60,514 nt of DNA from Bacteroidales bacterium (GTDB lineage: Bacteria; Bacteroidota; Bacteroidia; Bacteroidales; WCHB1-69): positions 1 through 60,514 of the forward strand of contig JAITUN010000248.1 in assembly GCA_031286285.1 (NCBI GenBank). Reading direction: 5' to 3'. This document shows, one piece after another, positions 8,268-28,074 of this stretch. Position 1 is the stretch's first letter; the number at the start of each line of letters is the position of its first letter. The notes below the pieces were generated by a model that made no database searches, was not told the DNA's origin, and saw nothing but the letters and a program-made list of their open reading frames with translations. The translations under genes were made by a program, and so were the position numbers.

Positions 8268-9746
8268 TTATTTCTTCTCAATTCTGAAAATAACTGCTCG
8301 TTGTTCTTTATAATCCTTTTCAGGAATATCAGCTTTATGTTGCGGGTCTTCAGCAGTAAAGTTTTGGGTAGAGATCTGATCTACAGGAACACCTTGATCA
8401 ATAAAGAATTTTCTTACCGCAATAGCACGTCTATAGCCTAAGTCTTTATTGTGTTCTACCGTTCCTTCCGGAGAAGTATAACCTGTGATCATTACTTTAA
8501 GATCAGGATTTGCTTTTAGTAATTCTACAGCACGTCTTATATGTTCATTTTTATTATCATCCATTTTTGGAATATCTTTATCTAAATCGAATAAGATTTT
8601 GATATTCGATAATGATTGTGCAAGTTCAAGGATAGCTTTTTTCTTGTCTGGATTGTTTTCAGATTCGTCAAGTAATTCTTGAGAGATTGTAGGAAGAAAA
8701 TAGTAATATTCTACAGTATTTGTAACAATAATAGGTTCATCTTTTTTCTCCATCATTTTGTCCATAAATCTTCTCTTTTGATCTCTCATATATTCATCAT
8801 TGGCACATGACTTACATGGCAAGAAATGGAATCCGAATTTAACGCCTGCCTGAAATAAGTGCCACTTATTCGTTGAGCTGACATATTTGCTAACCACTTG
8901 AGAAACATCAAATTTAGGATTAGCATTTTCAGTAGTTACCACATCTGCTTTTGGGTAAATATCTTTTTTGGGATATACATTAAGAAATCCATAAGATGCA
9001 AAAATACCAAGGTAAAAATCTGCATCTCTTGCTATTCCGAACACTCCTCCAAATTCACCAATTACATCCACAGAACATCTTAGTTTTGGTTTAGCGGATT
9101 GTCCTTTGACAGATCGGTCATCCATATGAATTAATAAATCAGTATAAACTACATTCAAACCTTCTTTGTCAATAATTTTATCAATTTTAATTGTTCCATC
9201 TGTATAACCAATTTTAGCTGAGAATGGGAAGTATCCTTTAATACCCACTCCTGCATAGATACCGTGCTTTCCCCATTTCTTTTCAAATTGCAAAGTTAAA
9301 GGAATATCAATTGCCCACACTAATTTTTGCTGCTTAAGTGGAGCTGCGGTGTATTCTAAATCATAGGTGGGATCTTTCGGATCATATACCCTATCATAAT
9401 AATCATAAATGATACTTGATTCATTAATTTTTGAAAAGATTCCTGTATGATTAATCCCTATTCCTATTCCAATACCAATATTTTGGTGGAAGAAATAGGT
9501 GTATCCCAATTCAGCCAAAGCTGTATAAGAACAATTTACAGAAACATTATTTAATTTTTTAAAAGTGTAATTAGCATAACCTCCGCCTATTCGGAATAAG
9601 ATTCTATGTGGACAAAAATCGTTTTGAGGTTCGGCAATGGAATCCGCAGTAGCGGTTGGTTGGGATTCGTTTTTTGTTTCAGTAGTTTGAGCAAAAGCCA
9701 CAAACATTCCAAAAATAAGACCGATTAATAATAGTTGTTTTTTCAT
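8268..9746 (-). CDS. OmpA-family outer-membrane protein
   Basis: A 492-residue protein with a signal peptide (LLLIGLIFGMFVAFA, cleavage after AFAQ or AFA). Residues ~45-310 alternate polar and aromatic residues in short glycine-bounded strands (GGGYANYTF, GIGIGIGINHTGIF, GKHGIYAGVGIKGYF, FQAGVKFGFHF), as in an outer-membrane beta-barrel. After a linker the OmpA C-terminal peptidoglycan-binding domain runs ~385-492 (ILFDLDKDI, MITGYTSPEGT, NKDLGYRRAIAVRKFF). It would tie the outer membrane to the cell wall. It lies 85 nt downstream of the giant T9SS cargo gene in the same direction, but a hairpin separates them, so co-transcription would need read-through. A functional link to the giant protein is inference. 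Confidence 0.9.
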   Translation of the reverse strand: MKKQLLLIGLIFGMFVAFAQTTETKNESQPTATADSIAEPQNDFCPHRILFRIGGGYANYTFKKLNNVSVNCSYTALAELGYTYFFHQNIGIGIGIGINHTGIFSKINESSIIYDYYDRVYDPKDPTYDLEYTAAPLKQQKLVWAIDIPLTLQFEKKWGKHGIYAGVGIKGYFPFSAKIGYTDGTIKIDKIIDKEGLNVVYTDLLIHMDDRSVKGQSAKPKLRCSVDVIGEFGGVFGIARDADFYLGIFASYGFLNVYPKKDIYPKADVVTTENANPKFDVSQVVSKYVSSTNKWHLFQAGVKFGFHFLPCKSCANDEYMRDQKRRFMDKMMEKKDEPIIVTNTVEYYYFLPTISQELLDESENNPDKKKAILELAQSLSNIKILFDLDKDIPKMDDNKNEHIRRAVELLKANPDLKVMITGYTSPEGTVEHNKDLGYRRAIAVRKFFIDQGVPVDQISTQNFTAEDPQHKADIPEKDYKEQRAVIFRIEKK

Positions 9747-9789: not shown

Positions 9790-9820
9790 AAGGCAGGCAG
9801 TTATGAATACTGCCCGCCTT
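9790..9820 (-). terminator. Hairpin terminator after the giant T9SS cargo gene
   Basis: AAGGCAGGCAG (9790-9800) and CTGCCCGCCTT (9810-9820) form an 11-bp stem with one mismatch. On the minus strand it is followed by TAACAAATAAAAATAAT, with no long T-run, so termination may be partial. Confidence 0.6.
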
Positions 9821-9831
9821 AAAACATTATC

Positions 9832-12800
9832 TTATTTAACAATTACGAATTTAATCGCCTTAATTTCATTAGTACCTGTGGTAATTCTACCCCAGTAAGT
9901 ACCTTGCGCTCTAAATCCATCCACAATAGTTCTTGAACTAACAACTTGTAGATGTTTTACTAAAGCGCCTTTTGCATCATAGATATCAAGAAGTGCGCCT
10001 TCCAACTCAGCGGGTGTTAAATCAAGTTCAACTGTTATAGGTTCATTTGTTTGCGCCGGTACAGGGTATACTTTAACAGTAGTTGATGGATTAAAGGCTT
10101 CATCACAAGTACTAAATTCTACAGTACCTATATGATTTCCATTTATGTCAACTTTAAATCCAGTTAGGTGTACTGTATAAATACCATTCACACCATCAGG
10201 ATCTTGATAATACTGTTTCGTAGCACCAGGTATTATTACACCATTCTTATACCATTGATAAGAAGTAAACTCATAACCACCATTATAGTATGGGCTTCCC
10301 GGATTCATATAATTGTTACTTACAACTAATACTTCACCGTATCCTTCCCATTTTCTAAAGATTAAAGACTGATTCCCTGTTCCGGTTCCGGCCCCAATTC
10401 CTCCGTGGTTCACGATAATAGTGAACCCGAATTCGCATTCATCAACAGCTAAAACAACATTGTTTGCACCAAATTCTATACCATTTGGAATGTCTACTGT
10501 AATAGAATTATATCCTTGCTTAATCTGTATTGATTTTGGCAAAGAGCCTTCAAATGTTATTGTTGCAATATTAGAGAGAGACGAAATTACATAAAATTCA
10601 ACATTAACTGAATTATCGCATGTTGCAACTTCCGGAGAAACAAATTCTACATTGGTTATAGTAACCGTAATCAGAGGTCTTACAAATGATCCCGGTAATA
10701 CACAAGGTGATTCATCCATTAATGATTCAATATGATAGGTAGTTGTTGCAGTAGGTGAAACTAAGATGGTCTCATCATTAGTAAATGATGTAATCTCTCT
10801 ATTAGTACCATCAGTACCAACAAATAGATATTTGAACGGTGGGGTACCTTCAAAGTGAACCTCTATCGGAATAAAGGATGCAGTCGGATCATTAGCACAT
10901 CTTTGGAGGTCTTCTAGAGTACTTTTAAATACAGCATTTACTACAACCGGTCTGCCAACATTAACCACAATCGGATATTCACAACCGTCAATGAAAATTA
11001 ACACATTATTATCTCCACTCGGCGCTTCTGCAGGAATATCAATATTTAAGAGATATTGATTTCCTATTTTTTGAATATCCTTATTCCAGCTTGCACCGGC
11101 AAAGGTAATCGTTGCTGTCTTAGAAACTAAATCTGTAACATTTAAGTACACATCAACAGTTGGATCGCATGTAGCAACATACGGATTAACTACAACTATA
11201 TCTGTTACCACTACAGTAATATCAGATTTTGCAAATACACCGGTTACACATTTTGACATATCATTGAGCGATTCAATGGTATATTGAGTTGTTACAGATG
11301 GTTTAACATCTAAGTAGAAATGATCTGTTGGCGATATCAGATTCCTGATAAGTCCACCGGGTTGTTCTAAGAGGGTGAAGTTATAAGGTGCTGTACCGTC
11401 AGTAAATACAATTTCTAATGTGTATTTAGGATCGTTTGCGCAAGTTTGTGGAACTCCTTCGTTAGCAAATTTAGCTTTAGGAGTAGTAGGTTGGATAGCT
11501 TCTATGGTCATTGGATAAGGATCAATATAACATCCTGAAATTGGATTGCTTGCGGAATAGGTAGCAATGTAGGTATAGTTACCTGCTTGAACCGGTTTGT
11601 GTGTTTGGTGACCGCCCAAACCGATAAATACATTATTACCACCATCCAAACTGTAGTACCATTCAATATAACCAATACTATAATCTTCAGGAACTCCGCC
11701 ACTGTAAACAGCGTCTAAAGTAACGATGTCGCCCAAACATAATCCATCTTCAGGTTTTGGATCAATAGTTACACTTTTCCATATCGGATTATCTTTAACA
11801 TGGTAAACTAATACATTAGAAGCAACAGCATTACAAGTTGGGTTCATAAATTCTGCATTGAGGTAGAATGAATGATCTCCGGTGTAATTGAACTCAATAG
11901 TACGAGGGTCAATTTGACTTGTAAAAGGAGCGCAATCGTTAGGCATGTCGTTCCAACAGTAGAGTTTTCCAACTTGAATAGCTGCATCCTCAACAGTTAG
12001 TTTATTTGAAATTTCTATAGCAGCTCCTTGACAAACATCATTATAGATGTAATCTTTAGGATAGATTTCAATAGAAGCCTGAGGAACAACTTTCACAGCT
12101 GCAAAATCAGTCCATTGTGCATTACATCCTAAATTATTATCAAGATAAGCTCTTACGCTATAAGTGTAAGTTCCCGGAACATTCAATTTTTCTGAATAGA
12201 AGTCGTATGGGTTCGTTATTGGCGCACCCGGAGTACGTCTCCACTCAAAAATAAAGTCTGATGGGTCAATTAATGTTACATCAAAATCAACTACTGTTGC
12301 TTGTAAGTTCACTTGACCACCCACGCACATGCCCGGTAATTGAAGACCTTCGATATTTTGTGATACAACTAATGATGGTACGGAAAGTACACTTACGTTT
12401 GCGGTAGTAGTGCCGTGGCAAGAGCCGGGTCCATAAGAACGATATACTGTAATAGCTATATCATTAATACCATAGTGTAAGTATTCGTTTTTGATTTCAA
12501 TATTATTATCTTCGGTAAACGGAAGTTCAGTTCCATTTACAGACCAGAAATAAGTATATGGATTTTCAGGAGTTGGGGTCGGATCTACATAAGCGGTAGC
12601 CCAAGTTGAGCCATCAAGACAGATGTTTGGATCGGCAACTGCAATTTGAACCTCCGGTTTGGGTTGAACGTTAACTTCATGACATGGAGAAACAGCTGTG
12701 CAATTGTAATTAATAGCTTTTACTTCAACGGTGATGCAATAGGGCGCTGCGGGATCACTAACATCTAAATTGTTAGGAACAACAGCGTATTCGCCTTCAT

Positions 12801-15800
12801 CATCAAATTCGGTATAGAAATTAACTTTAGGATTATTGCCTTGACGATAGAACCATGCATATTCGTAGGTAACGTTATCTTGTTTGCCGGTTACTATAGC
12901 ATGTAATGCCAGGTGTTCATCTTCTAAAGCTTGGTCACAAACGTCATGAGCGCCGAAGATAGTTACTTCAATTTCAGGATGAACCTCAACATATACCGGT
13001 GCAGAATGAGCAGATGTACATCCGTTAATGGTAACTGTTGCAGAATAATTATAAGTAGTCAATTCGTTATTGGCAGTAGGTTGATCGGTAATTGTTGGTT
13101 CAGAACTTTGAACATAAGACATTCCCATTCTATACCAATCATAATCACCTTCAATATTTCCACTTATAGTTACGGGATCGCCGCTACAAATAGTGGTGGG
13201 GGAGATAGTCAATACCGGAGCTGCCGGAATAGGATCAACTTTCACGGTAATTTCATTAGATGTAACTTTACATCCGGAAACAAGTTGAATACCTTGGAAA
13301 TAATAGATATGGTCTCCCGGAGAAGTCGGGGTATATTCATGGGAAGGAGAATTTCCGCCAGTTATTGCTAAATAATCTTCAAACCATTGCCATATCATGT
13401 TATCAATATCCGGAGCGTCTGCATCCAACCAGAATGGCATACCTATACAGATTTGTTCTTTACTTGAATGAATTGCAATTTGAGAGAACATACTTACATA
13501 AACACTATGAGGATCGGAAGTTATCTGACAACCGGACTCTAAATCTGTAATTACAACCTTATAAACATAAGGATACGGACTTGACTCGTTGCTTACTTGT
13601 TGTGTCGGTTCAGTTCCCATAGGATTACCATTTTCATACCATTGGTAAGTTACCGTTGCATTTTCCGGTTTTACGATAGCATATAAAACGGTTGGATCGG
13701 AAGCATCGCACACAGCGGTTGGTCCTGCTATAGAAACAGAAGGAGCAGCTTTAACGGTAATGGTTCCTGCATATACTATTGCAGAAGAACATTCAGCAGC
13801 CTCTGTGGTTGCTTTAACAGTAATTATAAATACACCGGGTTCGTCAAACAAAATAGTATGAGCAGATTCTTCAGCGCCAAATATTACTTGATCGTTTTTA
13901 TACCAGGTATAAATTGCAGGTAGATTAGGAATAACGGTGGCATTAAAGGTTACTTGCTCCCATTGACAAATAGTATCTTCAATAACATTAGCAACAGTAA
14001 CTACAGGGGTAGGTATTACTATAACAGGTATTGGATTAGAAATAGCCAAACAACCTGATACTATTTGTGTTGCATAGAGTTGATAACCGGGTTGATTTAC
14101 TGTTGTTGCAGGATTAACATACCAAGACGGAGTTATAGCGCCTTCAATTGCTACATTATCTGCATACCATTGATAAGTAATATTAGGATTAGGTGTAACA
14201 TGACCGGTTAACAATACTGTTTCTTCCGGACAAATTTCAGTTTTATCCGCTGTAGCAGCAAATGTTGGGAATTGGTAAACAGAAACTGTATGAGGTAATG
14301 ATTTCACCACACAGCCTGATTCAATATCTGTAATTTCTACAACATAAACGTATGGAGCCGGATCGGGTATATTGCTTACCACTTGAGTAGGATAGGTTCC
14401 CTTATGAATACCATTTTCAAACCATTGGTACGTTACTGTAGCATCTGATGGATCAACTTCTGCATACAATACGGTTGGGTCTGCTGCGTTGCAAACGAAA
14501 TCAGGTCCTGAGATAACAACCGAAGGAACGGCTTTTACCGTAATCTTTCCGGCAAACACCATTTCTGAGGTACAACCTGCTACTTGAGAAGTAGCAGAAA
14601 CTTTTACTTCAAAGATGCCATAGTGATCAAAGATATGAGTAAATGTTGCTAAATCTGCACCCTCTACTTTAACGCCATCGATATACCATGTGTAGGTAAC
14701 AGCTTCATTAGTAGTAAGGGTAGCTGTGAAAGTTCTTTGGTCGCCTTGACAAATAGTATCAATAACCGGAACTACTGTAATAACCGGTGTTGGGATTACT
14801 GTTACAGGTATTTCATTTGAAGTAGCTACACATTCGGAGCCGATTTGAGTAGCGGTAAATGTGTAAACTGTAGATATAATCGGATTTACATACAATATAG
14901 GTGCGTCAGCATCATCAATAGGATCTTCATCAGCATACCATTGATAGATCATATTAGGATCTTCTGAAACATTGGCTGTCAATGTAACAGTTTCTCCTGC
15001 GCAGATTTCAGTTTTATCAGCTGTAATTCCAATTACAGGGAAGTCGTTTACATAAACCGGGTGAACGGCTGATAAGATAACGCATCCTGATTCGGAATCT
15101 GTAATTTGAACCGTATAGTTATATGGGTATGGGCTTGGGTCTAAATTAGAAATATCTAAAGTAGCTGTATCCTCGCCGGTAATTGCAGTACCATCTAAGA
15201 ACCATTGATAATCAACCGTTGCATCTTCAGGATCAGTAATTGCATATAAGGTAGCATCTGCTGCTTCGCCGCAAATAATAGTTGGTCCGGCAATCGTTAC
15301 AGAAGGAGCGTCTTTCACAGTAATTGTTCCTGCATCTACCATTTCTGAGGTACAACCTGCCAATTCGGAAGTAGCAGAAACTTTTACTTCAAATACGCCA
15401 TAGTGGTCAAAGATATGAGTAAAGGTTCCCAATTCAGCGCCATCTACTTTAACACCATCAATAAACCATGCGTAGGTAACTGCATCGTTAGTAGTAAGGG
15501 TAGCGGTGAAAGTTACTTGTTCGCCTTTGCAAATTGTATCAATAACAGGAACTACGGTAATAACAGGAGCTGCAATTACAGTAACAGTCAGTGCATTTGA
15601 TACAGCCTTACATTCAGACTCGATTTGTTGAGCTGTAAATGTATAGATCGTTGTTACTAGTGGGTGAACTTGTAATACCGGTCCAACTTCGCCTACGATA
15701 GAATCTCCGTTGGCATACCATTGGTAGATCATATTTGGATCTTCAGAAACATTGGCAGTTACGATAACGTTGTCGCCTGCACAAACTTCATATTTGTCGG

Positions 15801-18800
15801 CGGTAATTCCTACAACAAGGAATTCGTTTACATAAACAGGATGAACTTCTGAAAGTATAACGCAACCTGATTCGTTATCTGTAATTTTAACCGTAAAGTT
15901 ATATGGGTATGGGCTTGGGTCTAAATTAGAAATATCTAAAGTAGCTGTATCCTCGCCTGTAATTGCAGTACCATCTAAGAACCATTGATAATCAACCGTT
16001 GCATCTTCAGGATCAGTAATTGCATATAAAGTAGCATCTACTGCATTGCCACAAATTGTGGTCGGTCCTGCGATTGTTACAGCGGGAGCGTCTTTCACGG
16101 TAATTGTTCCTGCAAGAACCATGTCGGAAGTACAGTTTGCAAATTCTGAAGTAGCAGAAACTTTAATTTCAAATACGCCATAGTGGTCAAAGATATGAGT
16201 AAAGGTTCCCAATTCAGCACCAATAACTTGAGTTCCGTCAATAAACCATGTATAGGTAACTGCATCGTTAGTAGTAAGGGTAGCGGTGAAAGTTACTTGT
16301 TCGCCTTTGCAAATTGTATCAACTATAGGAACTACGGTGATTATAGGAGCTGCAATTACAGTAACAGTCAGTGCATTTGATACAGCCTTACATTCTGAGC
16401 CAATTTGTTGAGCTGTGAATGTATAGATAGTAGTTACTAGCGGATGTGCCTGTAATACAGGTGCAACTTCGCCTACGATAGAATCTCCGTTGGCATACCA
16501 TTGGTAAATCATATTTGAATCATAGTCAACATCGGCGGTAACAATAACATTTTCGCCTGCGCAAACTTCATATTTGTCTGCGGTAATTCCTATAACAAGG
16601 AATTCGATTACATTAACCTGATGAACCGCTGAAAGCGTAGAGCATCCCGATTCAATATCAGTAATTTTAACTGTAAAGTTATATGGGTATGGACTTGGAT
16701 CTAAATTAGAGATGTCTAAAGTAGCTGTATCCGCTCCGGTAATTGCTTCACCATCTAAGAACCATTGATATTCAACAGTTGCATTTTCAGGATCGGTAAT
16801 TGCATACAAAGTAGCATCCGTAGCATTGCCGCAAACTGTGGTCGGTCCTGCAATTACAACAGCAGGAGCAGATTTAATTGTAACGGTTCCTACATAAGTA
16901 AGTTCAGATACACAGCCTGCGGTTTGAACGATAGCACGTACTTTATATACATAGACACCGGCTTCGGTTAACATTGGAGTATAAGATGCATTCGTTGCAT
17001 TATCAATAAGCACGTTGTTTTCATACCATTCATAAGTTACGTTATCAACAATAACATCATCAATAGTAGTATTAACGTTCATGGTAATTTGTTCTCCGCT
17101 GCAAATAGTATCTTCTACAGCAGGAGCAACAACATTAACCACAGGGATTGGAGTTACAGTAATCCATTTAATATCAGTAGCGCTACACAATGAGTGTGTT
17201 TGTAGCACTCTTACTTCAAATTTAGGATCATAGATATCTGTTTTGGCTAATGGTCCGGTTACGTATTCATATCCGGTTGCGCCCGGGATTAATACAGCGG
17301 AAGAGTCAACCAATATGAGAATATCATCTCCCAGTGGCATTTCAAATATGTTATATTCCCATCTGTACCATTGAATGGTCATATTTTGGGTATTGTAGTC
17401 ATTCAGATTTGCAGTAAGTGTTACTGAGCCGCCTTCGCAAACGGTTTCGTCAGTAGTTGTAATATTCACAACGGGCAATTCATGTACCCAAACTAAGAAT
17501 GGGTCGCTCATTGTAGAACAGCCGTCGCCACGAGTTACTTCAACGGTGAATGAATAGGGTTCAAATTGTGCGGGCCAATGTTCGGAATAGAATTGACCGG
17601 ACGGAGCGAAGTCAGGATCTATTTCACGCTCTTCACCTGATTCGTACCAGGTGTATGAAAGGTCGCCTACTTCATCTGACATATGATCAACAGATGCTTT
17701 CAAGAATACATCGTTAGTTTCACAAATGTTAGCATCTCCGGAAATTACAACGATAGGATTGCGATATGTGGTAACTGATACAGCAAGATCTTCAGCAAGT
17801 ATGGAAGCACATCCGGAATTTTCGTAAGTAACAATAGCATTGTAAGTATAAATGGTTACATCATCGTCAATCGCTAATGGAGATTCGGTGAAAGTGTTCA
17901 AATAAGCGCCCGGAATTTCAATACCATTTCTAAACCAGGTATAAACCGGATGGATTCCCCAATTGTTTTGATTTGGATATGCGGTAAGGGTTACTTGACC
18001 ACCCGAACAAATAGTAGTTGTGCTAATTGTAATTTCATCAATTACAGGTTTCGGATGGATATGCAGTGTATAGGATTCTTCAACTCTACATTTAATAACA
18101 TTATCGTGGTCATCAAATGTGGTAGTTTGTTTAACAACCACCCAGTATGTAACATCACCTACATCAAGCAATTCTGGAGTATTGTAGATTCTTTCGGTAG
18201 CGCCCGGAATCATATCAGCATCGGTGAGTGAGTTTTTATACCATTGATATACAAAGTCATCTTCATTATAATCATTGTGGTTGGCAGTTAAGGTTACGCT
18301 TCCGTTTACACAGATGTCGGTTTCGGAAGAAGTAATATTAATAACCGGTTGCGGATGAACATATACGAGAAACTCGTCACTCATTGTATAACAACCGAAA
18401 GGACCGGAATACTCTACTTTAAAAATATAAGGTTCCGGACTTGTAGGTAAATAAATATGAATATGTTGAGCATCCAATACATCTTCAAGGTCATATTTAG
18501 GACCATTCAAATACCATTGATAGCAATTCCAGTCATACGGTGCGTACTGATACTCGCCGTTTTTGAAAGCGGTAATATCCACGTTGGGTACTCCATGCTC
18601 TACATGACTACCTGCGTAAACATCACACACGTGGTGGTCGCCGTGGAGTTCGATAATAGGATTCTTAATTACAATTACAGTGTCCGGTCTGGAAAGATTT
18701 GAAGCGCATGCAATTCCGCCGAATGGAACTGCTTTAACTGTATAAATGTATAATGTTTGATCTTGATCTACTGTAAGCGGGGAAACGTGAATAGTACCTT

Positions 18801-21800
18801 GGTTTTCGCCTTCGATTTCAAATCCGTTTTCATACCAAATATAGTAATCCACATTTTCAGGTTTATTTACATGTGCTTTTAATTCTACTTGACCACCATC
18901 GCAAATCTTACCAGTCTGCGGCCACATTGTAAGGGCAACCATTACAACATCTGCTTCCAATACGTTTACGTAAAATTCGTATGAAGATTCGCAGCCATGT
19001 TCATTAAATGCATAGAACTTGAATTTGTACGGATACGGTCTTGCTTCTAAGCCCGGTACTTCTAATGTAGTACCATGGCCAATTATACCTTCTATTGCAG
19101 CAGGATCAAGAGTAACCACTAATTCGTTGTATTTAGCCTCAAATTCAGAATGATAAACGTCAGTATAAATAGTTTGAATTTTTTCCCTCAAGGAGTTAAT
19201 AAATTCATCTCGATAAACGCGAACATAATCACGTTTGTAACCTAACATATAGCCGGCATTATAAGCAACTTCTTGTAGCTCCCACTCACCATCACATGCC
19301 TGAGTATAGGTAATAGGAATAGGGGGAACGGTAATGCTTAAAGTATTGATATCATAATCAGCACAAGTTACTGCGTCAACAACAAAATCAGGATAGCTAT
19401 TGAGAAATCCCTCTGCGCGTGAATTACCATAATTTTCACCTATATCATATACAAGAAGCGGTAGGTGTCCTGCATCTTCTATTGCAGCGGCTTTTGCAAG
19501 AACTTCAATATAAATACGAAGATCTTCTGCACAACTTACAGCCCGAGCTAATGCAGCTAACGTAGCATCTGCATTAGCACGTCCATCACCACCATCGTTG
19601 CCTTGGGTCATACCTGCTTTATACATATCCCTCGCAGAGGTAGCAGTGTAAGTATTACATGCCGGAGGAGTAGTAAATAGATCTTCACTATAATCATAAG
19701 TTTGCTCACCCGGGATAATTTCTGGCAATGCATAAGCAATATTAAATGAAGAATTCACTGACATTAAGGCTACATTAAAGCCCTGATTAAATCCTAAAGG
19801 ATATTCTCCCATATCAGTCGGAGTATTTTGATAACCAAATAGAGTCCATACATATTTCAAGCCGGGGAGGTTGCTATATCCATACAGGGTAAAGGGTTCG
19901 TTTTCGCAAACGGTAGCCGGACCTTCAACATATACTTCCGGTTGAGGGGTAACGGTGATAACTACTTCTTCAGATTCATCGGAAGTACAACCCGGGTCAA
20001 GGGTTACTACTGCTTTATAGGTATATTCAGTAACAAGCGGGTCGTATGTATGTGGGAATACCACAATTTTATGGGTAACAGCGCCCGGTATTATAATACC
20101 GTTTTCATACCATGTATAAACTGCACCCGGATAATAAGGAGTAGCCTCTAATACTACAGAACCGCCTTCGCAAATATCAGCATCATCAGTTATTACAGTA
20201 ATTTGAGGTGCAACTACTACGGTTACTGTTACTGCATTGGATGTTGCTACACATTCAGATTCGATTTGTTGAGCAGTGAATGTATAAACAGTAGTTACAA
20301 TTGGATTTACATATAAAACAGGTCCGGTAGCTCCTTTAATAGAATCTCCGTTGGCATACCATTGGTAGATCATATTGTCGTCGCCGGAAACATTTGCGGT
20401 TAACATTACGGTTTCACCTTCACAAACTTTGGTCTTGTCGGCGGTAATTCCTATTACAGCAAATTCACCTACATATACAGAATGAACTGCAGATTGTACC
20501 ATACATAATGATACCGGATCAATAATTTGAACATAGAAATTATATGGATATGGGCTGGGATCAAGTTCTGAGATATCTAAAGCCTGATCTTCGCCAACAG
20601 TGGTGGGGTTGTCATTCATGTACCATGCAAAAGTAACTTCAGCATCTACAGGATCTGTTACAGCGTATAGGGTAGCATTTACTGCCTCACCGCATATCAC
20701 TTCAGGTCCTGCAATCACTACACCCGGAGCATCCTTAACTGTAATTTCACCTACTTTTACCAAACCTGAAGTACATGGCGCATCTTGTGCTTTAGCAGAA
20801 ACCTCTACTATAAATACACCGTGGTGATCAAATATTGGAGTGAAGTATGGTAAGATTGCATCGGGAACTTGCTCGCCGTTAATAAACCATGCGTATGTAA
20901 CTGATTCGTCTGTGGGCGTTACTGTTACTTCAAAGGTTACTTGTTCGCCTCTGCAAATAGTTTCTATTTTCGGATTTCCGGAAACTATTTCAGGAGTTGG
21001 GATTACTGTTACGGTTGCTTCGTTGGAAGTAGCCACACATAATGAACCGATTTGGGTAGCAGTGAATGTGTAAACGGTAGTTACTAATGGATTTACATAT
21101 AATACAGGTCCGTTAGCGCCCGAGATATCTATATCGTCTGCTTTCCATTGATAAATCATATTGTCGTCACCGGAAACGTTTGCGGTTAACATTACGGTTT
21201 CACCTGCGCAAATTTCAGTTTTATCAGCAGTAATTCCAATTACAGGAAATTCATTTACATAAACATAATGTTCTGCTGAAATAGTTACACAACCGGATGT
21301 TGGGTCGGTTACTTTTACAACATATACATAAGGATAAGGACTTGCAATATTGCTTACCTGAATATTATTTGTTGAACCCATTAATGCACCATGTTCATAC
21401 CATAAGTATTCATATTGGTTGAATAGGTCTAACGGATCGGTTACAGCATATAAATGGGTTGGAGTTTCTGCATTGCAAACTATAGAAGGTCCTTCGATAT
21501 GAACCTGAGGAGCTGCTTTTACATAAACTGTTGCAATATAAGTGAGCGTTGATGTACAACCGGCTACGTCTGAAATAGCCTTAACTTGTACATCAAATGT
21601 GCCTTCATTTTCGAAGAGATAGTTAAGGATGTAACTTGCATTTTCTGCTACAATCTGACCATTGATATACCATGTATAGGTTACATTGGTAACATTCGTA
21701 ACTGAAGCAAATACCATTTGTTGAGTTCCTTGACAGATTGTAAATTGTTCATACTTTTCTGTTACAATCGGTAGCGGAATAACGGTAATGGTTAAAGGAT

Positions 21801-24800
21801 TGGAAGTAGCAATACAAGTGGTTCCATTTTGTTGAGCCTCGAATCTGTAGATTGTTGTTTCTGTTGGATATACTTGACAAATTGGGGCAGTACCTACGAT
21901 ATTACCGGCATCATCCAACCATCTGTAAGTCATGTTGGGAGCTTCTGTAATTTGAGCGGTTAAAATAACGGTTTCGCCCGGGCAAGTTTCGGTTACGTCA
22001 GCAGAAATACCTACTTGAGGCGCTTCGTTTACGTAAACATAATGCTCTGCAGAAATGGATACACATCCTGTTGATGGGTCAGTTACTTTTACAACATATA
22101 CATAAGGATATGGACTTGCAACATTGCTTACAGGAATATTATTCGTTGAACCCATTAATGCACCGTGTTCATACCATAGGTATTCATATTGGTTAAATTC
22201 ATCCAACGGATCGGTTACGGCATATAGATTGGCGGGGTTTTCAGTATTGCAAACTATGGCAGGTCCTTCAATATGAACTTGAGGAACAGGGAGTACATAT
22301 ACGGTTGCAATATAAGTGAGCGCTGATGTACAACCGGCTACGTTTGAAATAACCTTAACCTGTACATCAAATGTGCCTGCATCTTCATAGAGATAGTTGA
22401 ATATGTAACTTGCATTCTCTGCTACGATCTGACCATTGATATACCAAGTGTAGGTTACATCGGTAAGATTAGTAACTGAAGCGAATACACTTTGTTGCGC
22501 GCCTTGGCAGATTGTGTATTGTTCATACTTTTCTGTTACAATCGGTAGCGGAATAACGGTAATGGTTAAAGGATTGGAGGTAGCAGTACAGGTAGTTCCA
22601 TTTTGTTGAGCCTCGAATCTGTAGATTGTTGTTTCTGTTGGATATACTTGACAAATTGGAGCATTTCCTACCACATTATCATTATCATCCAACCATCTGT
22701 AAGTCATATTGGAGGTTTCTGTAATATTGGCGGTTAAAATAACGGTTTCGCCGGGGCAAGTTTCGGTTTTATCAGCAGTGATTCCAACAACTGAAAACTC
22801 TTCTACATAAACTGTAAATGCGGCAGATTGAACCACGCATCCGGTTTGGAGTTCAGAAACTACAACTACATAGATATAGGGTTCCGGACTGGGAGTTGTG
22901 CTAATATCTTGTGTAGCCTTATCTCCGCCGATAATCTCTTCTCCATTCAAATACCATTGGTAGGTAAGTGTTGCTTCATAACCCACGGGGTTAACTATTG
23001 CATACAATACTGCGGGAACTTCGGAGTTGCAAACCAAGGTTGGTCCTGCAATCTCAACGCCGTAAAGACCACCCACTGCTACTTGAACCTGAGTAGTTAC
23101 TAATTCGCAATTATTGCCGGGATATGCTAAACGAGCATATACATAGTGAACACCTTCTGTATCAAATGGAATATTGAGATAGTTCAAGTTTTCTCCGGGT
23201 ACTTCAATGCCGTCCACCCACCAGGTAATGGTTGGTTCTCCGTATTCTAGAATATTCTCGTCTTCACCTAAAGAGAAGAAAACGAGCGTATTTAGACAAG
23301 TAACTGTGGTTGAAGCATCAATTTCAACCGGTTTTAATGTGCCTTGTACTGTAATGGTAAATGGGGTCATTTCGGAATGGCAGGCAGCGTTCAACATCTC
23401 TACTTGTACGTAGTATGTGGAAACTCCACCTGTACCCGTCATATCTTTGTATTCAAATAATCTGTGATTTTCGTAAGTAGTATCAATCGGGTCTCCATTA
23501 ATATCATCAAACCATAGATAGCGATAGATGATGCCGCCGTCGAAAACAATGGCATTTGCTTCCACTTCTACTGCGCCATTTTCGCAAATCTTATAGTTGT
23601 CAATTACAACCACCGGTTTTGGAACTACTTGGAAGTACAATATTGGAGAGTACACCACTTCGCAGCCGCAAAGCGATACTTCTAACTGATATTCAATCAC
23701 AGCAATAGAGTCTCCAATAACTTCTTCGTACATAAGTTCATTTTCGTCAACAAGATAGTTGCCATCTTTTTTCCATTTGAGGAGATATTCGGTGGCTTCT
23801 GTTTCCACGATAGCCACTAAGTGCAAGGTTTCGCCAACGCAGCCTGAGTTAGGTCCTGAAATTGTAACCGTTGCGGGTGGGCATCCCACTTTAAAGTGGT
23901 GATATACCAATTGTGCATCGCAACCGGGGCAATCTTGGATAGCCTTAACAGCCACAAAGTAATCGCCGATATTTCCAAGAACGGCTTGGTCGGTTAGCAC
24001 ATATACATTTCCGGTAACGCCGGTTACTTCAGTTCCGTTCAAGAACCATTGATAAGTAGCGTTTCCGTGTCCGCCGGCGATATTAGCGGTAAACTCGGCA
24101 GATGGTGTGTCTTTGGGCAGGAATGTTGGTCCGCTAACCATAAGTACCGGATCTTTCAGTACGGTAACTTGATAACATTCTGAGAATGTATGGCATTGAT
24201 CCGGTTCTAACGGATCGGGAACACCTTGCCATATTTCTAATTGATAGCAATAGGATTTAGGTCCTAATTCATTTTCGTGTAATGCAGGGTTCGTGGTGAA
24301 CTCTACCATATTGATGCCGGGAGGCAACAGGTATTCTTGATAAATATCATTCAAAGCCAATCCGTTTTCTAACCATCTGTAATACACAGGGGCAGCGCCG
24401 GTTCCCAAGGCAATATTTGAAAGTTCAAATTGAGTTTTTACACTTCCGCCTTCACATACAATATCTTCTTTGTTGCCGATAATCTCGATATTAATACCGG
24501 CATCAATGCCAATTGTTGGTGTATGTTCAATATGAGGACAGTTTAGTCCATTAGTATTTACATAGATCTCAAAATAGATCTGTACTACATCGTCGTCCAT
24601 ATCAATTTTGTAGGTTCCGGTTAAGGAAGTATATGGGATAGGATTACCGGTATCCCAGTTAGGAGTAGCAATTGTACCTGTATTTTTATATATATACCAT
24701 ATATAATTTTGGTTTCCATTTGCGCCCGCAATATTAGCGGTTAGGTTAATGGTATTGTGGTTACATATTTTTGTGGGGATTGGACCGAAAGTAATGTTGG

Positions 24801-27800
24801 TTACGGGGTCATTTGCGGGTTCAACTTCAAAATCTTTGTGAGCAGAACAGCCACCCTCAGAGGTAGGAGTAGTTGCAACAAAACGATAAGTTGCTGTAGT
24901 AGTACGTCCGGTAATTCCGCAAGTTAAACTGGTAGAAAGAGCGGGTCCTCCAACAATTCCTCCTACAACTTCATACCATGCATACGTGCAGCCTGCCGGT
25001 GATGTTACCGTAGTAGAAAGGGTTGCGGTTTCTCCAGGACAAGGAAGTGCGTCAATCTCTATCTCTTCAATGTCCGGTAAGCCGTAGATATGTATTGTCG
25101 TTTCTACTGTATTGGAGCAATAGTCATCTTCAAATGTGCAAGTAATGGTATATTCTTGGGTAATAGCGCCTGCCAGATTAATCTCTCCGTTATCTTCGTC
25201 AATATCTAATGCGGGGTCTGAAGTGTAATTAAGATTTTTCAAGGTTCCTTCTCCGGTTAGTTTTGTAAAAGTGGGCAAAAGAGTACCTTCAGCGCAAAGC
25301 GCACCACCTGAATAGGATAATGTTGCGGTGGGAAGCGCTCTAACTGTAAGTGGTTGAGTAGCTGAATTTTCACAGCCATTTTCATCGGTAAAAGTATAAG
25401 TAATTGTATAGGGAGCTCCTACGCTTACGCCGGCAACATCCGGATAGAATACGCCGTCAGTTACGCCTGTGCCGCTATATACGCCGGTACCTGTTGATGT
25501 TGAAGAGCCGCCGGTTAAAGTTAACGGGTCTGCATCAATACAAATATCGGTAATACCAAGGGTAAAGGTAACTACCGGTAAAGCATTAACTTTTACGCCC
25601 CCTTTTACTTCTATAGATTTACAACCATTACCATCTTCTCCGATAACTGATACATAACCATCTTGAGGGATTGAAGTATCAACGGTAAAAGAAGCGATGG
25701 TAGCAGAATAAGTTCCGCTTACTGTAGATCCGGTCCAATCCCATGACATACCGGTAGAGCCGGTATTTGCTTGCACGATTAGTGTTTCATTTAAACAAAC
25801 GGTATCCACACCGGATAAGGTTATTATCGGTAGCGCCCAAGTGGTTAAAGTAATTTCGTCTTGCGTATAGCACTCTTCATAATCGGTATTATATAATCTC
25901 CATGCAACTTCCACCGAGTATCCTTCGGGTACAGTAATTGTTGCCTCTGGGTCGGTTGGACCTTCAATATCGAATCCGGTAACGGGCATATCTGCATCAT
26001 CCGTAAGCACCACCCATTCTCCTCTTTCGCCTGTTATCGGAGCATTGGCTTCCATTTGGAAAGTAAATTCACCATCAACGGCACATTCGCTTGGATTAGT
26101 TGGCTCAGTAATTGCTGCTTGCGTAGGTAACGGGTAAACGGTAACGGGTACATCAATTTCAACATAACAGTAAATTTCTTCCGGTTCGTCAATATTATCT
26201 CTAACCGTTAGTATAACAGTTCCGGTACCCACATGAGCTGTAGCTGTATTAACTGTAAAAACATTATCTACGCCTGTACCGTCAATATCTCCAGTGGTTT
26301 CCCAAAGATAAGAATAGTCTCCGGAACTGGAACCGCCGGTAACGGTTGCTGTAATTATCAATGTACCGTCTTCGCAGCCCTTATATTCAGTTTCGTCAAA
26401 TTCAACTTCGGGTATTTCGTAAACGGTGATAGAACCTTCGGCAAGCCTTTCGCATCCGTTACCATCAGTAACCGTAACAGAAAAAGAACCTCCTGTTACC
26501 GGATCGTCTGTATCTATTTCATAAGCGGACTCATCTGTGATAGATCCATCGCTAGTACCATCTACACCTGTAGACACCCATACATAGGTATAATCAGGTG
26601 CCGGGGCTTGATTATTATAGGATACCTTTGCAATTATTTCAGCATCCTCAAATTGACAAGCCACGAGATCAACCGGTTCAACTGTTAAGGTTGGGTTTTC
26701 GAACACCACAATCATTACGGTATCTCTTGCGGGGTCGCAAGGTTCTTTCGAGATTGTCCATACCACAAAAGCTGTATCTCCGGGGGCTACGGTTACGGTT
26801 GTAACATTGCCAACAGTAGTTGTAAGTGATCCTTTATCCACCGACCAAAGACCTGTTTCTCCTTCACCTGTATTTGGCGCATTTCCTGTTAAGGTAAAAG
26901 TATTACCTGCTGTAGGCAGAGCGTCACATTGTTTTAATGTGTCTGGTCCTGCTATCACAGCAACAGGTTTTTTTAGTACAGTAATTGTGATTTCATCTTC
27001 TCCTTCGCAAGTAAAGTCGTCGCCATATACATTAGCAGGAACGGCGTTCACTTTTGTTACAACTTTGAAAGTGTTGGCGCCATAATCTGCAGTACCCGCA
27101 GTTACTAATGCTTCAATATCAACAATAAACTCAACAGGTATTATTGCTTTGGTTGCGTCTAGATCTTGTATATTTTCATCAACTGGGTCCCCATTCACAT
27201 ACAATGTAGTTACTAATTCATAATCTCCATCGTATGTAAAATCAGGAGTTGCTGATATCGTTACAAACCCATCTTCACAAACCCTTTCTATATCTGCTTC
27301 AAGGTCTTCTACTGTTGGAGGGGCAAGCACTTCAAAAGATATGTATGTATTAGCATCACAACTATTTAGTACAGAAGGTTTTCCATTTAGATCTATTACT
27401 GAGATAGCAAAAGTAAAAGTATTTGTACCTAATGTTAAATTGGTAAATTCTTGCTCTTTCCATACAAGAGGAGCAGTATGATCATAATTGGATGCATAAT
27501 TACCGGGATAAGTATTTGTACCATCACTCCAGGTATAGTTAATTGTAATTCCGTCGGCTTCAGGAATATCCCAACTGGCAGCTCCGGAGAGTGTTACCGA
27601 CCCACCTGTACACACTAAATCTGTTAGAGTAGTAGGGTCTATTGATACTTCCGGAAAACTTAACACATGAAGTTCAATCGGAGGTATGGTACCATCCGAT
27701 CCAAGAGAGGATAAGAGAACTCCATCTTCCTTAATCGTACCATAAATGAGCATTGAACCTGTAATCGGTAAATTAACAGAAAAGAAGTTGGCAATAAAAC

Positions 27801-28074
27801 TCATTACAGGATCTGTTGAATGCTCATCAATAACATACCAAGTAGAACCATTATCAGTACTTACATGAATTTCCGGCTCTGTAAGATCAGTGTAATGCCC
27901 ATCATCAAGGGTTACAGTAAATGCAACAGGGATAGTGACTGTTCCTGTTGCAGAGCATCGCAATCCTGATTGGACAGCCGATGTGACTCCGATTCCGGCT
28001 CTAGTTTGCGCGTTCACATTAATAAATCCCACAAAAAGTAGGAATGTTAGAAGAAAAATCGTAAATTTTTTCAT
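9832..28074 (-). CDS. Giant 6080-residue secreted Ig-like repeat protein with T9SS type A sorting tail
   Basis: The gene is 18.2 kb with no frame break. The signal peptide is at residues 1-22 (FTIFLLTFLLFVGFINVNAQ). The body is dozens of ~80-90 residue Ig-like modules, each opening with IC-x-G-x-x-V-TLTA, carrying a YQWY or YTWY strand and closing with C. The paired cysteines suggest one disulfide per module. Two stretches (bases ~13.5-17.2 kb and ~20.2-23.0 kb) are built of three-module, 260-residue supra-repeats. Residues ~2754-2994 break the pattern (see the entry at 19095). Two related non-Ig modules lie near ~5540-5890. The last ~80 residues are a T9SS type A sorting domain (VKVYPVPAQTNEPI; LLDIYDAKGALVK; GTYWGRITTG; KAIKFVIVK). 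It should be exported by the T9SS and attached at the cell surface, or released. An adhesin-like or surface-layer role is plausible; no catalytic domain was recognised. Confidence 0.95.
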   Translation of the reverse strand: MKKFTIFLLTFLLFVGFINVNAQTRAGIGVTSAVQSGLRCSATGTVTIPVAFTVTLDDGHYTDLTEPEIHVSTDNGSTWYVIDEHSTDPVMSFIANFFSVNLPITGSMLIYGTIKEDGVLLSSLGSDGTIPPIELHVLSFPEVSIDPTTLTDLVCTGGSVTLSGAASWDIPEADGITINYTWSDGTNTYPGNYASNYDHTAPLVWKEQEFTNLTLGTNTFTFAISVIDLNGKPSVLNSCDANTYISFEVLAPPTVEDLEADIERVCEDGFVTISATPDFTYDGDYELVTTLYVNGDPVDENIQDLDATKAIIPVEFIVDIEALVTAGTADYGANTFKVVTKVNAVPANVYGDDFTCEGEDEITITVLKKPVAVIAGPDTLKQCDALPTAGNTFTLTGNAPNTGEGETGLWSVDKGSLTTTVGNVTTVTVAPGDTAFVVWTISKEPCDPARDTVMIVVFENPTLTVEPVDLVACQFEDAEIIAKVSYNNQAPAPDYTYVWVSTGVDGTSDGSITDESAYEIDTDDPVTGGSFSVTVTDGNGCERLAEGSITVYEIPEVEFDETEYKGCEDGTLIITATVTGGSSSGDYSYLWETTGDIDGTGVDNVFTVNTATAHVGTGTVILTVRDNIDEPEEIYCYVEIDVPVTVYPLPTQAAITEPTNPSECAVDGEFTFQMEANAPITGERGEWVVLTDDADMPVTGFDIEGPTDPEATITVPEGYSVEVAWRLYNTDYEECYTQDEITLTTWALPIITLSGVDTVCLNETLIVQANTGSTGMSWDWTGSTVSGTYSATIASFTVDTSIPQDGYVSVIGEDGNGCKSIEVKGGVKVNALPVVTFTLGITDICIDADPLTLTGGSSTSTGTGVYSGTGVTDGVFYPDVAGVSVGAPYTITYTFTDENGCENSATQPLTVRALPTATLSYSGGALCAEGTLLPTFTKLTGEGTLKNLNYTSDPALDIDEDNGEINLAGAITQEYTITCTFEDDYCSNTVETTIHIYGLPDIEEIEIDALPCPGETATLSTTVTSPAGCTYAWYEVVGGIVGGPALSTSLTCGITGRTTTATYRFVATTPTSEGGCSAHKDFEVEPANDPVTNITFGPIPTKICNHNTINLTANIAGANGNQNYIWYIYKNTGTIATPNWDTGNPIPYTSLTGTYKIDMDDDVVQIYFEIYVNTNGLNCPHIEHTPTIGIDAGINIEIIGNKEDIVCEGGSVKTQFELSNIALGTGAAPVYYRWLENGLALNDIYQEYLLPPGINMVEFTTNPALHENELGPKSYCYQLEIWQGVPDPLEPDQCHTFSECYQVTVLKDPVLMVSGPTFLPKDTPSAEFTANIAGGHGNATYQWFLNGTEVTGVTGNVYVLTDQAVLGNIGDYFVAVKAIQDCPGCDAQLVYHHFKVGCPPATVTISGPNSGCVGETLHLVAIVETEATEYLLKWKKDGNYLVDENELMYEEVIGDSIAVIEYQLEVSLCGCEVVYSPILYFQVVPKPVVVIDNYKICENGAVEVEANAIVFDGGIIYRYLWFDDINGDPIDTTYENHRLFEYKDMTGTGGVSTYYVQVEMLNAACHSEMTPFTITVQGTLKPVEIDASTTVTCLNTLVFFSLGEDENILEYGEPTITWWVDGIEVPGENLNYLNIPFDTEGVHYVYARLAYPGNNCELVTTQVQVAVGGLYGVEIAGPTLVCNSEVPAVLYAIVNPVGYEATLTYQWYLNGEEIIGGDKATQDISTTPSPEPYIYVVVVSELQTGCVVQSAAFTVYVEEFSVVGITADKTETCPGETVILTANITETSNMTYRWLDDNDNVVGNAPICQVYPTETTIYRFEAQQNGTTCTATSNPLTITVIPLPIVTEKYEQYTICQGAQQSVFASVTNLTDVTYTWYINGQIVAENASYIFNYLYEDAGTFDVQVKVISNVAGCTSALTYIATVYVLPVPQVHIEGPAIVCNTENPANLYAVTDPLDEFNQYEYLWYEHGALMGSTNNIPVSNVASPYPYVYVVKVTDPSTGCVSISAEHYVYVNEAPQVGISADVTETCPGETVILTAQITEAPNMTYRWLDDAGNIVGTAPICQVYPTETTIYRFEAQQNGTTCIATSNPLTITVIPLPIVTEKYEQFTICQGTQQMVFASVTNVTNVTYTWYINGQIVAENASYILNYLFENEGTFDVQVKAISDVAGCTSTLTYIATVYVKAAPQVHIEGPSIVCNAETPTHLYAVTDPLDLFNQYEYLWYEHGALMGSTNNIQVSNIASPYPYVYVVKVTDPTSGCVTISAEHYVYVNEFPVIGITADKTEICAGETVMLTANVSGDDNMIYQWKADDIDISGANGPVLYVNPLVTTVYTFTATQIGSLCVATSNEATVTVIPTPEIVSGNPKIETICRGEQVTFEVTVTPTDESVTYAWFINGEQVPDAILPYFTPIFDHHGVFIVEVSAKAQDAPCTSGLVKVGEITVKDAPGVVIAGPEVICGEAVNATLYAVTDPVDAEVTFAWYMNDNPTTVGEDQALDISELDPSPYPYNFYVQIIDPVSLCMVQSAVHSVYVGEFAVIGITADKTKVCEGETVMLTANVSGDDNMIYQWYANGDSIKGATGPVLYVNPIVTTVYTFTAQQIESECVATSNAVTVTVVVAPQITVITDDADICEGGSVVLEATPYYPGAVYTWYENGIIIPGAVTHKIVVFPHTYDPLVTEYTYKAVVTLDPGCTSDESEEVVITVTPQPEVYVEGPATVCENEPFTLYGYSNLPGLKYVWTLFGYQNTPTDMGEYPLGFNQGFNVALMSVNSSFNIAYALPEIIPGEQTYDYSEDLFTTPPACNTYTATSARDMYKAGMTQGNDGGDGRANADATLAALARAVSCAEDLRIYIEVLAKAAAIEDAGHLPLLVYDIGENYGNSRAEGFLNSYPDFVVDAVTCADYDINTLSITVPPIPITYTQACDGEWELQEVAYNAGYMLGYKRDYVRVYRDEFINSLREKIQTIYTDVYHSEFEAKYNELVVTLDPAAIEGIIGHGTTLEVPGLEARPYPYKFKFYAFNEHGCESSYEFYVNVLEADVVMVALTMWPQTGKICDGGQVELKAHVNKPENVDYYIWYENGFEIEGENQGTIHVSPLTVDQDQTLYIYTVKAVPFGGIACASNLSRPDTVIVIKNPIIELHGDHHVCDVYAGSHVEHGVPNVDITAFKNGEYQYAPYDWNCYQWYLNGPKYDLEDVLDAQHIHIYLPTSPEPYIFKVEYSGPFGCYTMSDEFLVYVHPQPVINITSSETDICVNGSVTLTANHNDYNEDDFVYQWYKNSLTDADMIPGATERIYNTPELLDVGDVTYWVVVKQTTTFDDHDNVIKCRVEESYTLHIHPKPVIDEITISTTTICSGGQVTLTAYPNQNNWGIHPVYTWFRNGIEIPGAYLNTFTESPLAIDDDVTIYTYNAIVTYENSGCASILAEDLAVSVTTYRNPIVVISGDANICETNDVFLKASVDHMSDEVGDLSYTWYESGEEREIDPDFAPSGQFYSEHWPAQFEPYSFTVEVTRGDGCSTMSDPFLVWVHELPVVNITTTDETVCEGGSVTLTANLNDYNTQNMTIQWYRWEYNIFEMPLGDDILILVDSSAVLIPGATGYEYVTGPLAKTDIYDPKFEVRVLQTHSLCSATDIKWITVTPIPVVNVVAPAVEDTICSGEQITMNVNTTIDDVIVDNVTYEWYENNVLIDNATNASYTPMLTEAGVYVYKVRAIVQTAGCVSELTYVGTVTIKSAPAVVIAGPTTVCGNATDATLYAITDPENATVEYQWFLDGEAITGADTATLDISNLDPSPYPYNFTVKITDIESGCSTLSAVHQVNVIEFLVIGITADKYEVCAGENVIVTADVDYDSNMIYQWYANGDSIVGEVAPVLQAHPLVTTIYTFTAQQIGSECKAVSNALTVTVIAAPIITVVPIVDTICKGEQVTFTATLTTNDAVTYTWFIDGTQVIGAELGTFTHIFDHYGVFEIKVSATSEFANCTSDMVLAGTITVKDAPAVTIAGPTTICGNAVDATLYAITDPEDATVDYQWFLDGTAITGEDTATLDISNLDPSPYPYNFTVKITDNESGCVILSEVHPVYVNEFLVVGITADKYEVCAGDNVIVTANVSEDPNMIYQWYANGDSIVGEVGPVLQVHPLVTTIYTFTAQQIESECKAVSNALTVTVIAAPVITVVPVIDTICKGEQVTFTATLTTNDAVTYAWFIDGVKVDGAELGTFTHIFDHYGVFEVKVSATSELAGCTSEMVDAGTITVKDAPSVTIAGPTIICGEAADATLYAITDPEDATVDYQWFLDGTAITGEDTATLDISNLDPSPYPYNYTVQITDSESGCVILSAVHPVYVNDFPVIGITADKTEICAGETVTLTANVSEDPNMIYQWYADEDPIDDADAPILYVNPIISTVYTFTATQIGSECVATSNEIPVTVIPTPVITVVPVIDTICQGDQRTFTATLTTNEAVTYTWYIDGVKVEGADLATFTHIFDHYGIFEVKVSATSQVAGCTSEMVFAGKITVKAVPSVVISGPDFVCNAADPTVLYAEVDPSDATVTYQWFENGIHKGTYPTQVVSNIPDPAPYVYVVEITDIESGCVVKSLPHTVSVYQFPTFAATADKTEICPEETVLLTGHVTPNPNITYQWYADNVAIEGAITPSWYVNPATTVNQPGYQLYATQIVSGCLAISNPIPVIVIPTPVVTVANVIEDTICQWEQVTFNATVIPNLPAIYTWYKNDQVIFGAEESAHTILFDEPGVFIITVKATTEAAECSSAIVYAGTITVKAAPSVSIAGPTAVCDASDPTVLYAIVKPENATVTYQWYENGNPMGTEPTQQVSNESSPYPYVYKVVITDLESGCQITSDPHSVYVSMFSQIAIHSSKEQICIGMPFWLDADAPDIDNMIWQWFEDYLAITGGNSPSHEYTPTSPGDHIYYFQGIQLVSGCKVTSNEITVKVDPIPAAPVLTISPTTICSGDPVTISGNIEGDYDWYRMGMSYVQSSEPTITDQPTANNELTTYNYSATVTINGCTSAHSAPVYVEVHPEIEVTIFGAHDVCDQALEDEHLALHAIVTGKQDNVTYEYAWFYRQGNNPKVNFYTEFDDEGEYAVVPNNLDVSDPAAPYCITVEVKAINYNCTAVSPCHEVNVQPKPEVQIAVADPNICLDGSTWATAYVDPTPTPENPYTYFWSVNGTELPFTEDNNIEIKNEYLHYGINDIAITVYRSYGPGSCHGTTTANVSVLSVPSLVVSQNIEGLQLPGMCVGGQVNLQATVVDFDVTLIDPSDFIFEWRRTPGAPITNPYDFYSEKLNVPGTYTYSVRAYLDNNLGCNAQWTDFAAVKVVPQASIEIYPKDYIYNDVCQGAAIEISNKLTVEDAAIQVGKLYCWNDMPNDCAPFTSQIDPRTIEFNYTGDHSFYLNAEFMNPTCNAVASNVLVYHVKDNPIWKSVTIDPKPEDGLCLGDIVTLDAVYSGGVPEDYSIGYIEWYYSLDGGNNVFIGLGGHQTHKPVQAGNYTYIATYSASNPISGCYIDPYPMTIEAIQPTTPKAKFANEGVPQTCANDPKYTLEIVFTDGTAPYNFTLLEQPGGLIRNLISPTDHFYLDVKPSVTTQYTIESLNDMSKCVTGVFAKSDITVVVTDIVVVNPYVATCDPTVDVYLNVTDLVSKTATITFAGASWNKDIQKIGNQYLLNIDIPAEAPSGDNNVLIFIDGCEYPIVVNVGRPVVVNAVFKSTLEDLQRCANDPTASFIPIEVHFEGTPPFKYLFVGTDGTNREITSFTNDETILVSPTATTTYHIESLMDESPCVLPGSFVRPLITVTITNVEFVSPEVATCDNSVNVEFYVISSLSNIATITFEGSLPKSIQIKQGYNSITVDIPNGIEFGANNVVLAVDECEFGFTIIVNHGGIGAGTGTGNQSLIFRKWEGYGEVLVVSNNYMNPGSPYYNGGYEFTSYQWYKNGVIIPGATKQYYQDPDGVNGIYTVHLTGFKVDINGNHIGTVEFSTCDEAFNPSTTVKVYPVPAQTNEPITVELDLTPAELEGALLDIYDAKGALVKHLQVVSSRTIVDGFRAQGTYWGRITTGTNEIKAIKFVIVK
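13494..17160 (-). repeat. Tandem ~780-bp (260-residue) supra-repeats, block A
   Basis: The same landmark (CATAAAC or close variants before a TGAAC/GCTGA stretch) recurs near 13494, 14272, 15052, 15832 and 16612, a spacing of about 780 bp. Units starting near 15052 and 15832 are almost identical over hundreds of bases, indicating recent duplication or gene conversion. Boundaries are approximate. Confidence 0.8.
19095..19815 (-). other. Non-Ig, probably helical island inside the giant protein
   Basis: Residues ~2754-2994 interrupt an Ig-like module between its YVWTLFGY strand and the closing EARPYPYKFKFYAF strand. The island has no Ig signature. It is rich in Ala, Glu, Asp and Tyr, with helix-like stretches (DATLAALARAVSCAEDLRIY; YIEVLAKAAAIEDAGHLP; FINSLREKIQTIYTDVY) and four cysteines. 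It looks like a domain nested in a loop. I do not recognise the family. Confidence 0.7.
20220..23050 (-). repeat. Tandem ~780-bp supra-repeats, block B
   Basis: Equivalent landmarks occur near 20470, 21259, 22039 and 22808, again about 780 bp apart. The 21259 and 22039 units are most alike. This block is separated from block A by divergent Ig-like modules and the non-Ig island, so expansion happened at two sites in the same gene. Boundaries are approximate. Confidence 0.75.

Follow-up and report, generated by a model that had tools for sequence, protein, structure and literature searches.

A giant, predicted type IX-exported Ig-array protein and its putative barrel-OmpA partner: a candidate two-gene operon for a long cell-surface fibre in Bacteroidales

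What does an 18-kilobase bacterial gene encode, and how might so long a product be held at the cell surface? These questions are raised by a locus in the 60,514-nucleotide stretch of Bacteroidales DNA analyzed here (the window), where a single unbroken open reading frame on the minus strand (9832-28074, ATG start) encodes a protein of 6,080 aa and takes up 30.1% of the sequence. The initial annotation had described one continuous 18.2-kb gene of 6080 residues making up 30 percent of the window and had taken the product for a cargo of the type IX secretion system (T9SS); both descriptions stand, the latter through a match above cut-off to the type A sorting domain profile TIGR04183. Most of the clues to the function of this giant come from two elements absent from that annotation, i.e. 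a downstream OmpA gene and a conserved intercistronic hairpin. The features of the locus are as follows.

9832-28074, minus strand: 6,080-aa giant Ig-array protein, T9SS type A cargo
28009-28074, minus strand: putative N-terminal signal peptide, MKKFTIFLLTFLLFVGFINVNA, read from the sequence
23071-28008, minus strand: N-terminal part, aa 23-1668, divergent Ig/PKD-like modules
12979-23070, minus strand: array of three-module A-B-C units, aa 1669-5032
19948-23070, minus strand: N-terminal-side block of the array, units 22291-23070, 21517-22290, 20734-21516 and 19948-20733
17755-19947, minus strand: diverged middle of the array, aa 2710-3440, still of A/B/C type, one module place apparently missing
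19081-19821, minus strand: ~245 aa inserted into an A-type Ig module, spanning about aa 2752-2998
12979-17754, minus strand: second block of the array, units 16879-17754, 16099-16878, 15319-16098, 14539-15318, 13756-14538 and 12979-13755
10312-11478, minus strand: membrane-proximal region, conserved across the family
9835-10071, minus strand: type A C-terminal sorting domain for the T9SS, strongly conserved across family members
9790-9820, minus strand: RNA hairpin between the two genes, with a 12-bp stem and a 7-nt loop and not followed by a U-run
8268-9746, minus strand: partner gene P0001, 492 aa, predicted OmpA-type barrel of the outer membrane plus OmpA peptidoglycan-binding domain
8224-8249, minus strand: intrinsic terminator downstream of the partner gene, with six T

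The N-terminus of the giant is hydrophobic and has a start pattern (MKKF.IF.LM..) common to family members. The divergent modules that follow (aa 23-1668) are the region most variable between close species of the family, and no ligand-binding domain was recognized in this N-terminal part. Towards the other end, the membrane-proximal region recurs within this protein as an internal duplication (39% internal match). TIGR04183 scored 27.7 bits in a 222-aa query and 23.0 bits in a 560-aa query (cut-off 23). A type A sorting domain is present in all 15 family giants tested, and NCBIfam scans of the giants, which returned type A matches plus one weak type C match only, found no type B domain. The genome that contains the window encodes SprA and PorV (427 bits), as well as three PorP-family proteins encoded away from the giant locus. 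It has 137 matches to the type A domain, among which that of the giant lies near the bottom (28.1 bits); within the family, the majority residue reaches 0.91 over the last 20 aa of this domain. A sorting domain that scores low yet is conserved within its family is as would be expected if a dedicated partner reads it. We are highly confident of the architecture, which, like the export signal, can be read from the sequence.

An iterated module HMM resolved ~52-56 Ig-like modules of ~86 aa each in the giant; in Pfam these belong mostly to Ig_7 ('CHU_C associated'), with PKD and Ig_2/Ig_3 overlaps, consistent with the Ig-like modules described initially. A pair of Cys residues, which would be expected to form a disulfide, is present in most of the ~55 Ig modules. 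HMMs of the module types A, B, and C read an ABCABC... order from aa 1669 to ~5030, which amounts to about 13 A-B-C units in one array, diverged in the middle. Amplification by three-module units of about 780 bp, as had been proposed, is supported by BLAST of the gene against itself, which gave off-diagonals at 774-786 nt in two regions. The accompanying proposal, that the repeats form two separate blocks amplified at distinct sites, does not hold: although the modules between the two blocks are diverged, most are still typed A, B, or C through aa 2710-3440, and units of the two blocks are 67-79% identical in DNA. Given this continuity of types and the relatedness between blocks, two independent amplifications were rejected.

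The units near 15052 and 15832 had been called almost identical, a description that needs correcting. The pair shows 88.6% identity over 780 nt and is the top pair in the gene to within 0.2%; the adjacent whole units at this place share 86% of their residues and of their nucleotides (dS 0.39), and the remaining unit pairs of the giant are mostly far more diverged. A recent tandem duplication is not supported in this gene, the lowest inter-unit dS being 0.39. Closer repeat copies are found in some relatives (94% over ~1 kb in G073). The repeats are unlikely to be an assembly artefact, since copies differ at at least 11% of positions, with the differences spread along the copy length, and since the same period recurs in many separately assembled genomes. 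In the diverged middle of the array, the ~245-aa insert sits between the apparent early and late strands of its A module, and one module place is apparently absent beside that module. As judged by eye the insert is helix-rich, and neither Pfam, PDB sequences, nor 60 relatives yielded a match to it.

The partner gene P0001 starts 85 bp downstream of the giant. Its OmpA domain is assigned with an E value of 2.2e-14, and a structural model of middling quality (pLDDT 69) predicts about 8 barrel strands followed by the OmpA domain. A PorP/SprF barrel is not supported by profile for the partner, TIGR03519 being absent from the 25 families listed at E<=0.1, which leaves the known family of cargo receptors unrepresented in the pair. 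The Arg of the OmpA peptidoglycan motif is kept in 13 of 13 aligned partners, and the Asp position is Ser or Cys in most of them (GYT[SC]). We take this Asp and Arg to be peptidoglycan-contact residues, and because the usual Asp is replaced in most members, peptidoglycan binding by the partner is not assured. Two further residues, Cys45 and Cys311, are both kept in 38 of 39 partners and both absent in the remaining one, a pattern that suggests a disulfide across the periplasmic ends of the barrel. Compared with such an internal bond, a disulfide linking the partner with GldK of the track, as in PorG/SprF (PMC12635249), appears less likely, because the two Cys residues are kept together and lost together; the joint loss is, however, a single event.

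Relatives of the giant were reached via the partner gene, for which a scan of 84,980 species genomes gave 42 loci. Their titles are nearly all of Bacteroidales or Bacteroidetes (one each from Prevotella, Lentimicrobiaceae, and Erysipelotrichaceae), and the sources named there are mostly rumen, other herbivore gut, or faeces. In each of the 36 loci with upstream sequence (the other 6 of the 42 are too near a contig edge to be counted), a giant with a matching ending stops ~79-150 bp upstream of the partner, and our confidence in this pairing is likewise high. Strong partner matches (E<=1e-20) were found in 13 of 35 genomes sampled from the family to which the window belongs and in 0 of 24 from other families of the order; the gene pair is therefore patchy within one family. 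Synteny is partly kept in G001, G003, and G005, with an H+-pyrophosphatase gene upstream and a gene for an AMP-binding enzyme downstream. No earlier description of the pair was found in the literature searched, most subscription papers lying outside the search, and the giants apparently constitute an undescribed family in mostly gut-associated Bacteroidales.

Two other loci of the same genome encode proteins of related make-up. On contig C164 (L042:1492-17094), a 2,960-aa SprB-repeat protein is followed by a 1,705-aa type A cargo and then by a barrel-OmpA protein, the last two being a distant version of the giant-partner pairing. On contig C249 (L044:706-2286), a 526-aa ORF joins a protein kinase domain to a C-terminal OmpA domain that is 65% identical to that of the partner; a cytoplasmic kinase joined to a periplasmic domain is odd, and the ORF may be either a chimera or a true fusion. 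Elsewhere in the window, at 19-4706, a 584-aa ORF at the window edge carries an RHS repeat-associated core domain (39.6 bits), and behind it small ORFs of similar size follow one another at a constant spacing of 48 nt; the one tested carries a TonB C-terminal domain. Heptamer tandem repeats (TGAGTAG, AAGTTAC, TACTCAC) occur at 36549-36586 and 59762-59876.

The three-module register extends to the family. With A, B, and C HMMs trained on the 6,080-aa protein alone, the order A>B>C>A was followed in 637 of 908 neighboring modules of 28 other giants, compared with 306±15 (maximum 348) on shuffling. Independently of the A/B/C types, 1,034 of 1,365 modules (436 expected) are separated from their best in-protein match by a multiple of three modules, and 314 of 319 module pairs with at least 60% identity are in three-module register; in all these counts, modules within one protein and between related species are not mutually independent, so that the binomial p-value should not be read literally. 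The nearest two relatives, G001 and G003, have giant fragments only, with a weak period or none in the fragment. A neutral reading suffices for the register, recombination requiring a similarity that is shared only by modules of the same type; selection on the three-module unit is possible. In-contig stops interrupt the giant frame at L051 (G001) and L081 (G031), where the gene is either broken or misassembled.

Protein length had initially been expected to vary between strains; between species it varies greatly, complete giants of the family ranging from 3,666 to 9,397 aa, with the 6,080 aa of the present protein mid-range. In close species, the repeat-rich C-terminal array is collinear and length changes towards the N-terminus. 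For G075 and G078, the C-terminal 21.4 kb are collinear in DNA at 89% identity, and the length difference lies in the N-terminal quarter, where most of it is aligned as a single indel of 546 aa near aa 1710. For G061 and G079, the C-terminal 10.8 kb are collinear at 82% identity; large indels are absent, and identity is low (43%) in the N-terminal part. The same trend, a conserved C-terminal array with change towards the N-terminus, is seen among G061, G076, and G063 and between G066 and G062.

The gap between giant and partner holds a hairpin of 10-14 bp, 7-16 nt after the giant stop codon, in 37 of 37 loci. Compared across loci by their own pairing, the stems differ in sequence, with at least 3 pair types at each of nine inner stem positions, i.e. 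with compensatory changes; the same stem length was reached in 21 of 3,700 dinucleotide shuffles. Hairpins of at least 10 bp are not rare in the longer gaps of the window, so the case for this one rests on its conservation and not on its presence. No Rfam family matched the region at gathering score. A terminator is not favored, as the hairpin has no U-run, while the partner gene is itself followed by a proper terminator; most likely it would serve to control the ratio of the two products or to protect the long mRNA.

Comparison with known systems bears on how the giant might work. A four-module A-B-C-A stretch was modeled at pLDDT 95, and its closest counterpart is the stalk of GhpA, a protein of 5,898 aa that forms a heptamer (PMC13319060). 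GhpA, grappling hook protein A of Aureispira sp. CCB-QB1 (PDB 9flp and others), resembles the giant in being a T9SS-exported string of Ig-type modules, the hook protein of Aureispira being secreted by the T9SS (PMC11205867), and is the best match to the stalk units in both sequence and fold. A four-module profile placed GhpA far above the rest of the solved proteins (E 1.4e-230, 19 stretches), and GhpA segments lead the Foldseek comparison (TM 0.53-0.67); in a further structural comparison, its stalk segments reach Z 12.8-15.3 with rmsd 4.5-5.5 angstrom over ~315 residues. These results could be taken to mean that the giant is a hook-like filament that works as GhpA does, several copies bundling into a stiff, tipped structure that catches other cells. 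However, comparison by single sequence gives a modest total of 98.7 bits, of which the best stretch accounts for 42, and titin Ig domains come close behind in Z (14.1), albeit at 9.2 angstrom. Moreover, GhpA differs from the giant in the sequence of its N- and C-terminal parts: neither the C-terminal 1,048 aa nor the N-terminal 1,668 aa of the giant matches GhpA at E<=0.01, and the family C-terminal profile gives no match to it at E<=1. As the ends of the giant have no counterpart there by sequence, we regard GhpA as a likeness of the stalk and not as a sign of membership. In addition, no T6SS sheath gene was found with PF05591, a model that may miss Bacteroidetes T6SS. Overall, a GhpA-like mode of action seems unlikely.

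The gene order invites comparison with the SprB-SprF(-PorE) system of Flavobacterium johnsoniae and with PG1035-PorP-PorE of P. gingivalis, which also combine a surface T9SS cargo with a barrel (PMC9143113, PMC12618676). SprB is a very large cargo, and its barrel SprF is encoded directly downstream, as is the partner of the giant. A mobile gliding adhesin like SprB, moved along a GldK/GldJ track, would be compatible with a near full-length GldJ match in the genome (394.7 bits, below cut-off) and with the presence of PorP-family genes. In contrast, type B cargo is held by the PorP/SprF barrel, with PorE as the proposed wall link (PMC9143113, PMC12618676), and the type A sorting domain rules out the giant as a type B adhesin. 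The partner combines barrel and OmpA domain in one protein and by profile is not SprF-like, its OmpA domain would tie it to the wall, and a separate SprB-repeat protein is encoded elsewhere in the genome; of the alternatives considered, we give gliding the least credence. It is also improbable, about as much so as a GhpA-like filament, that the giant is an ordinary type A cargo, handled by PorV, sortase, and A-LPS, with an OmpA gene that encodes a merely co-transcribed envelope protein without direct link to it. In studied species PorV is the general shuttle for type A cargo and is described as recognizing all type A domains (PMC12618676), such cargo is anchored by covalent linkage to A-LPS (PMC9143113), and PorV is present in this genome; anchoring by A-LPS linkage would need no dedicated partner. 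Set against this are the pairing of giant and partner across many genomes, the conserved hairpin between them, and the second, distant pair of type A cargo and barrel-OmpA protein in the same genome.

The nearest working analogue of the pair appears to be AtaA-TpgA of Acinetobacter sp. Tol 5, where a gene for a large adhesin is followed in the same operon by one for a protein with an OmpA peptidoglycan-binding domain that is needed for display (PMC5861075). AtaA is a type V autotransporter, unlike the T9SS giant, and TpgA has a SmpA domain, with no barrel described; P0001 matches the TpgA model through the OmpA-domain end only (43.5 bits, cut-off 350). By its description alone, Bap of A. baumannii may also be likened to the giant, as a giant protein consisting mostly of Ig-like modules of 80-110 aa (PMC4647330).

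In the reading that we consider probable, the locus is an operon of two genes that builds a long cell-surface fibre: the giant is an Ig stalk, exported by the T9SS and stapled by disulfides, whose distal end varies, and the OmpA partner holds it to the wall. A signal peptide would take the giant across the inner membrane and SprA/PorV of the type IX system across the outer one, with the type A C-terminal domain as the recognition element for the latter step. Its ~55 Ig modules would then string out as a stalk estimated at ~200 nm (about 4 nm per module), in which the C-terminal end and the A-B-C array would form the constant, cell-proximal portion, and the fast-changing N-terminal part the distal end, where contact with other cells, host mucus, or plant fibre would be likely; our confidence in any particular ligand is low. 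The partner would be made from the same transcript, sit in the outer membrane, and grip the C-terminal end of the giant, and its OmpA domain may tie the giant to peptidoglycan. The hairpin would set the ratio of the two products or protect the long mRNA. Unequal recombination would lengthen or shorten arrays by complete sets of three modules, since sufficient similarity exists only between modules of one type (A with A).

The combination of a fixed three-module register, a type A domain, a one-piece barrel-OmpA partner, and a conserved hairpin is new for a T9SS giant fibre. More tentatively, the pair may represent a new way of holding type A cargo, beyond PorV and A-LPS alone, in which a giant with an atypical domain has its own operon-encoded OmpA-type receptor and wall anchor that does the jobs of SprF and PorE in one, and in which, among Bacteroidales of gut and rumen, the fibres, reaching ~9,400 aa, may assemble into hook-like filaments. 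Giant T9SS proteins have so far been known singly (SprB, GhpA), and here a family is available, with 36 loci besides the present one. The giant-partner pair makes it testable how a type A cargo can get its own anchor. With the family, it also becomes testable why arrays are altered in steps of three full modules and to what these bacteria attach by fibres perhaps hundreds of nanometres in length.
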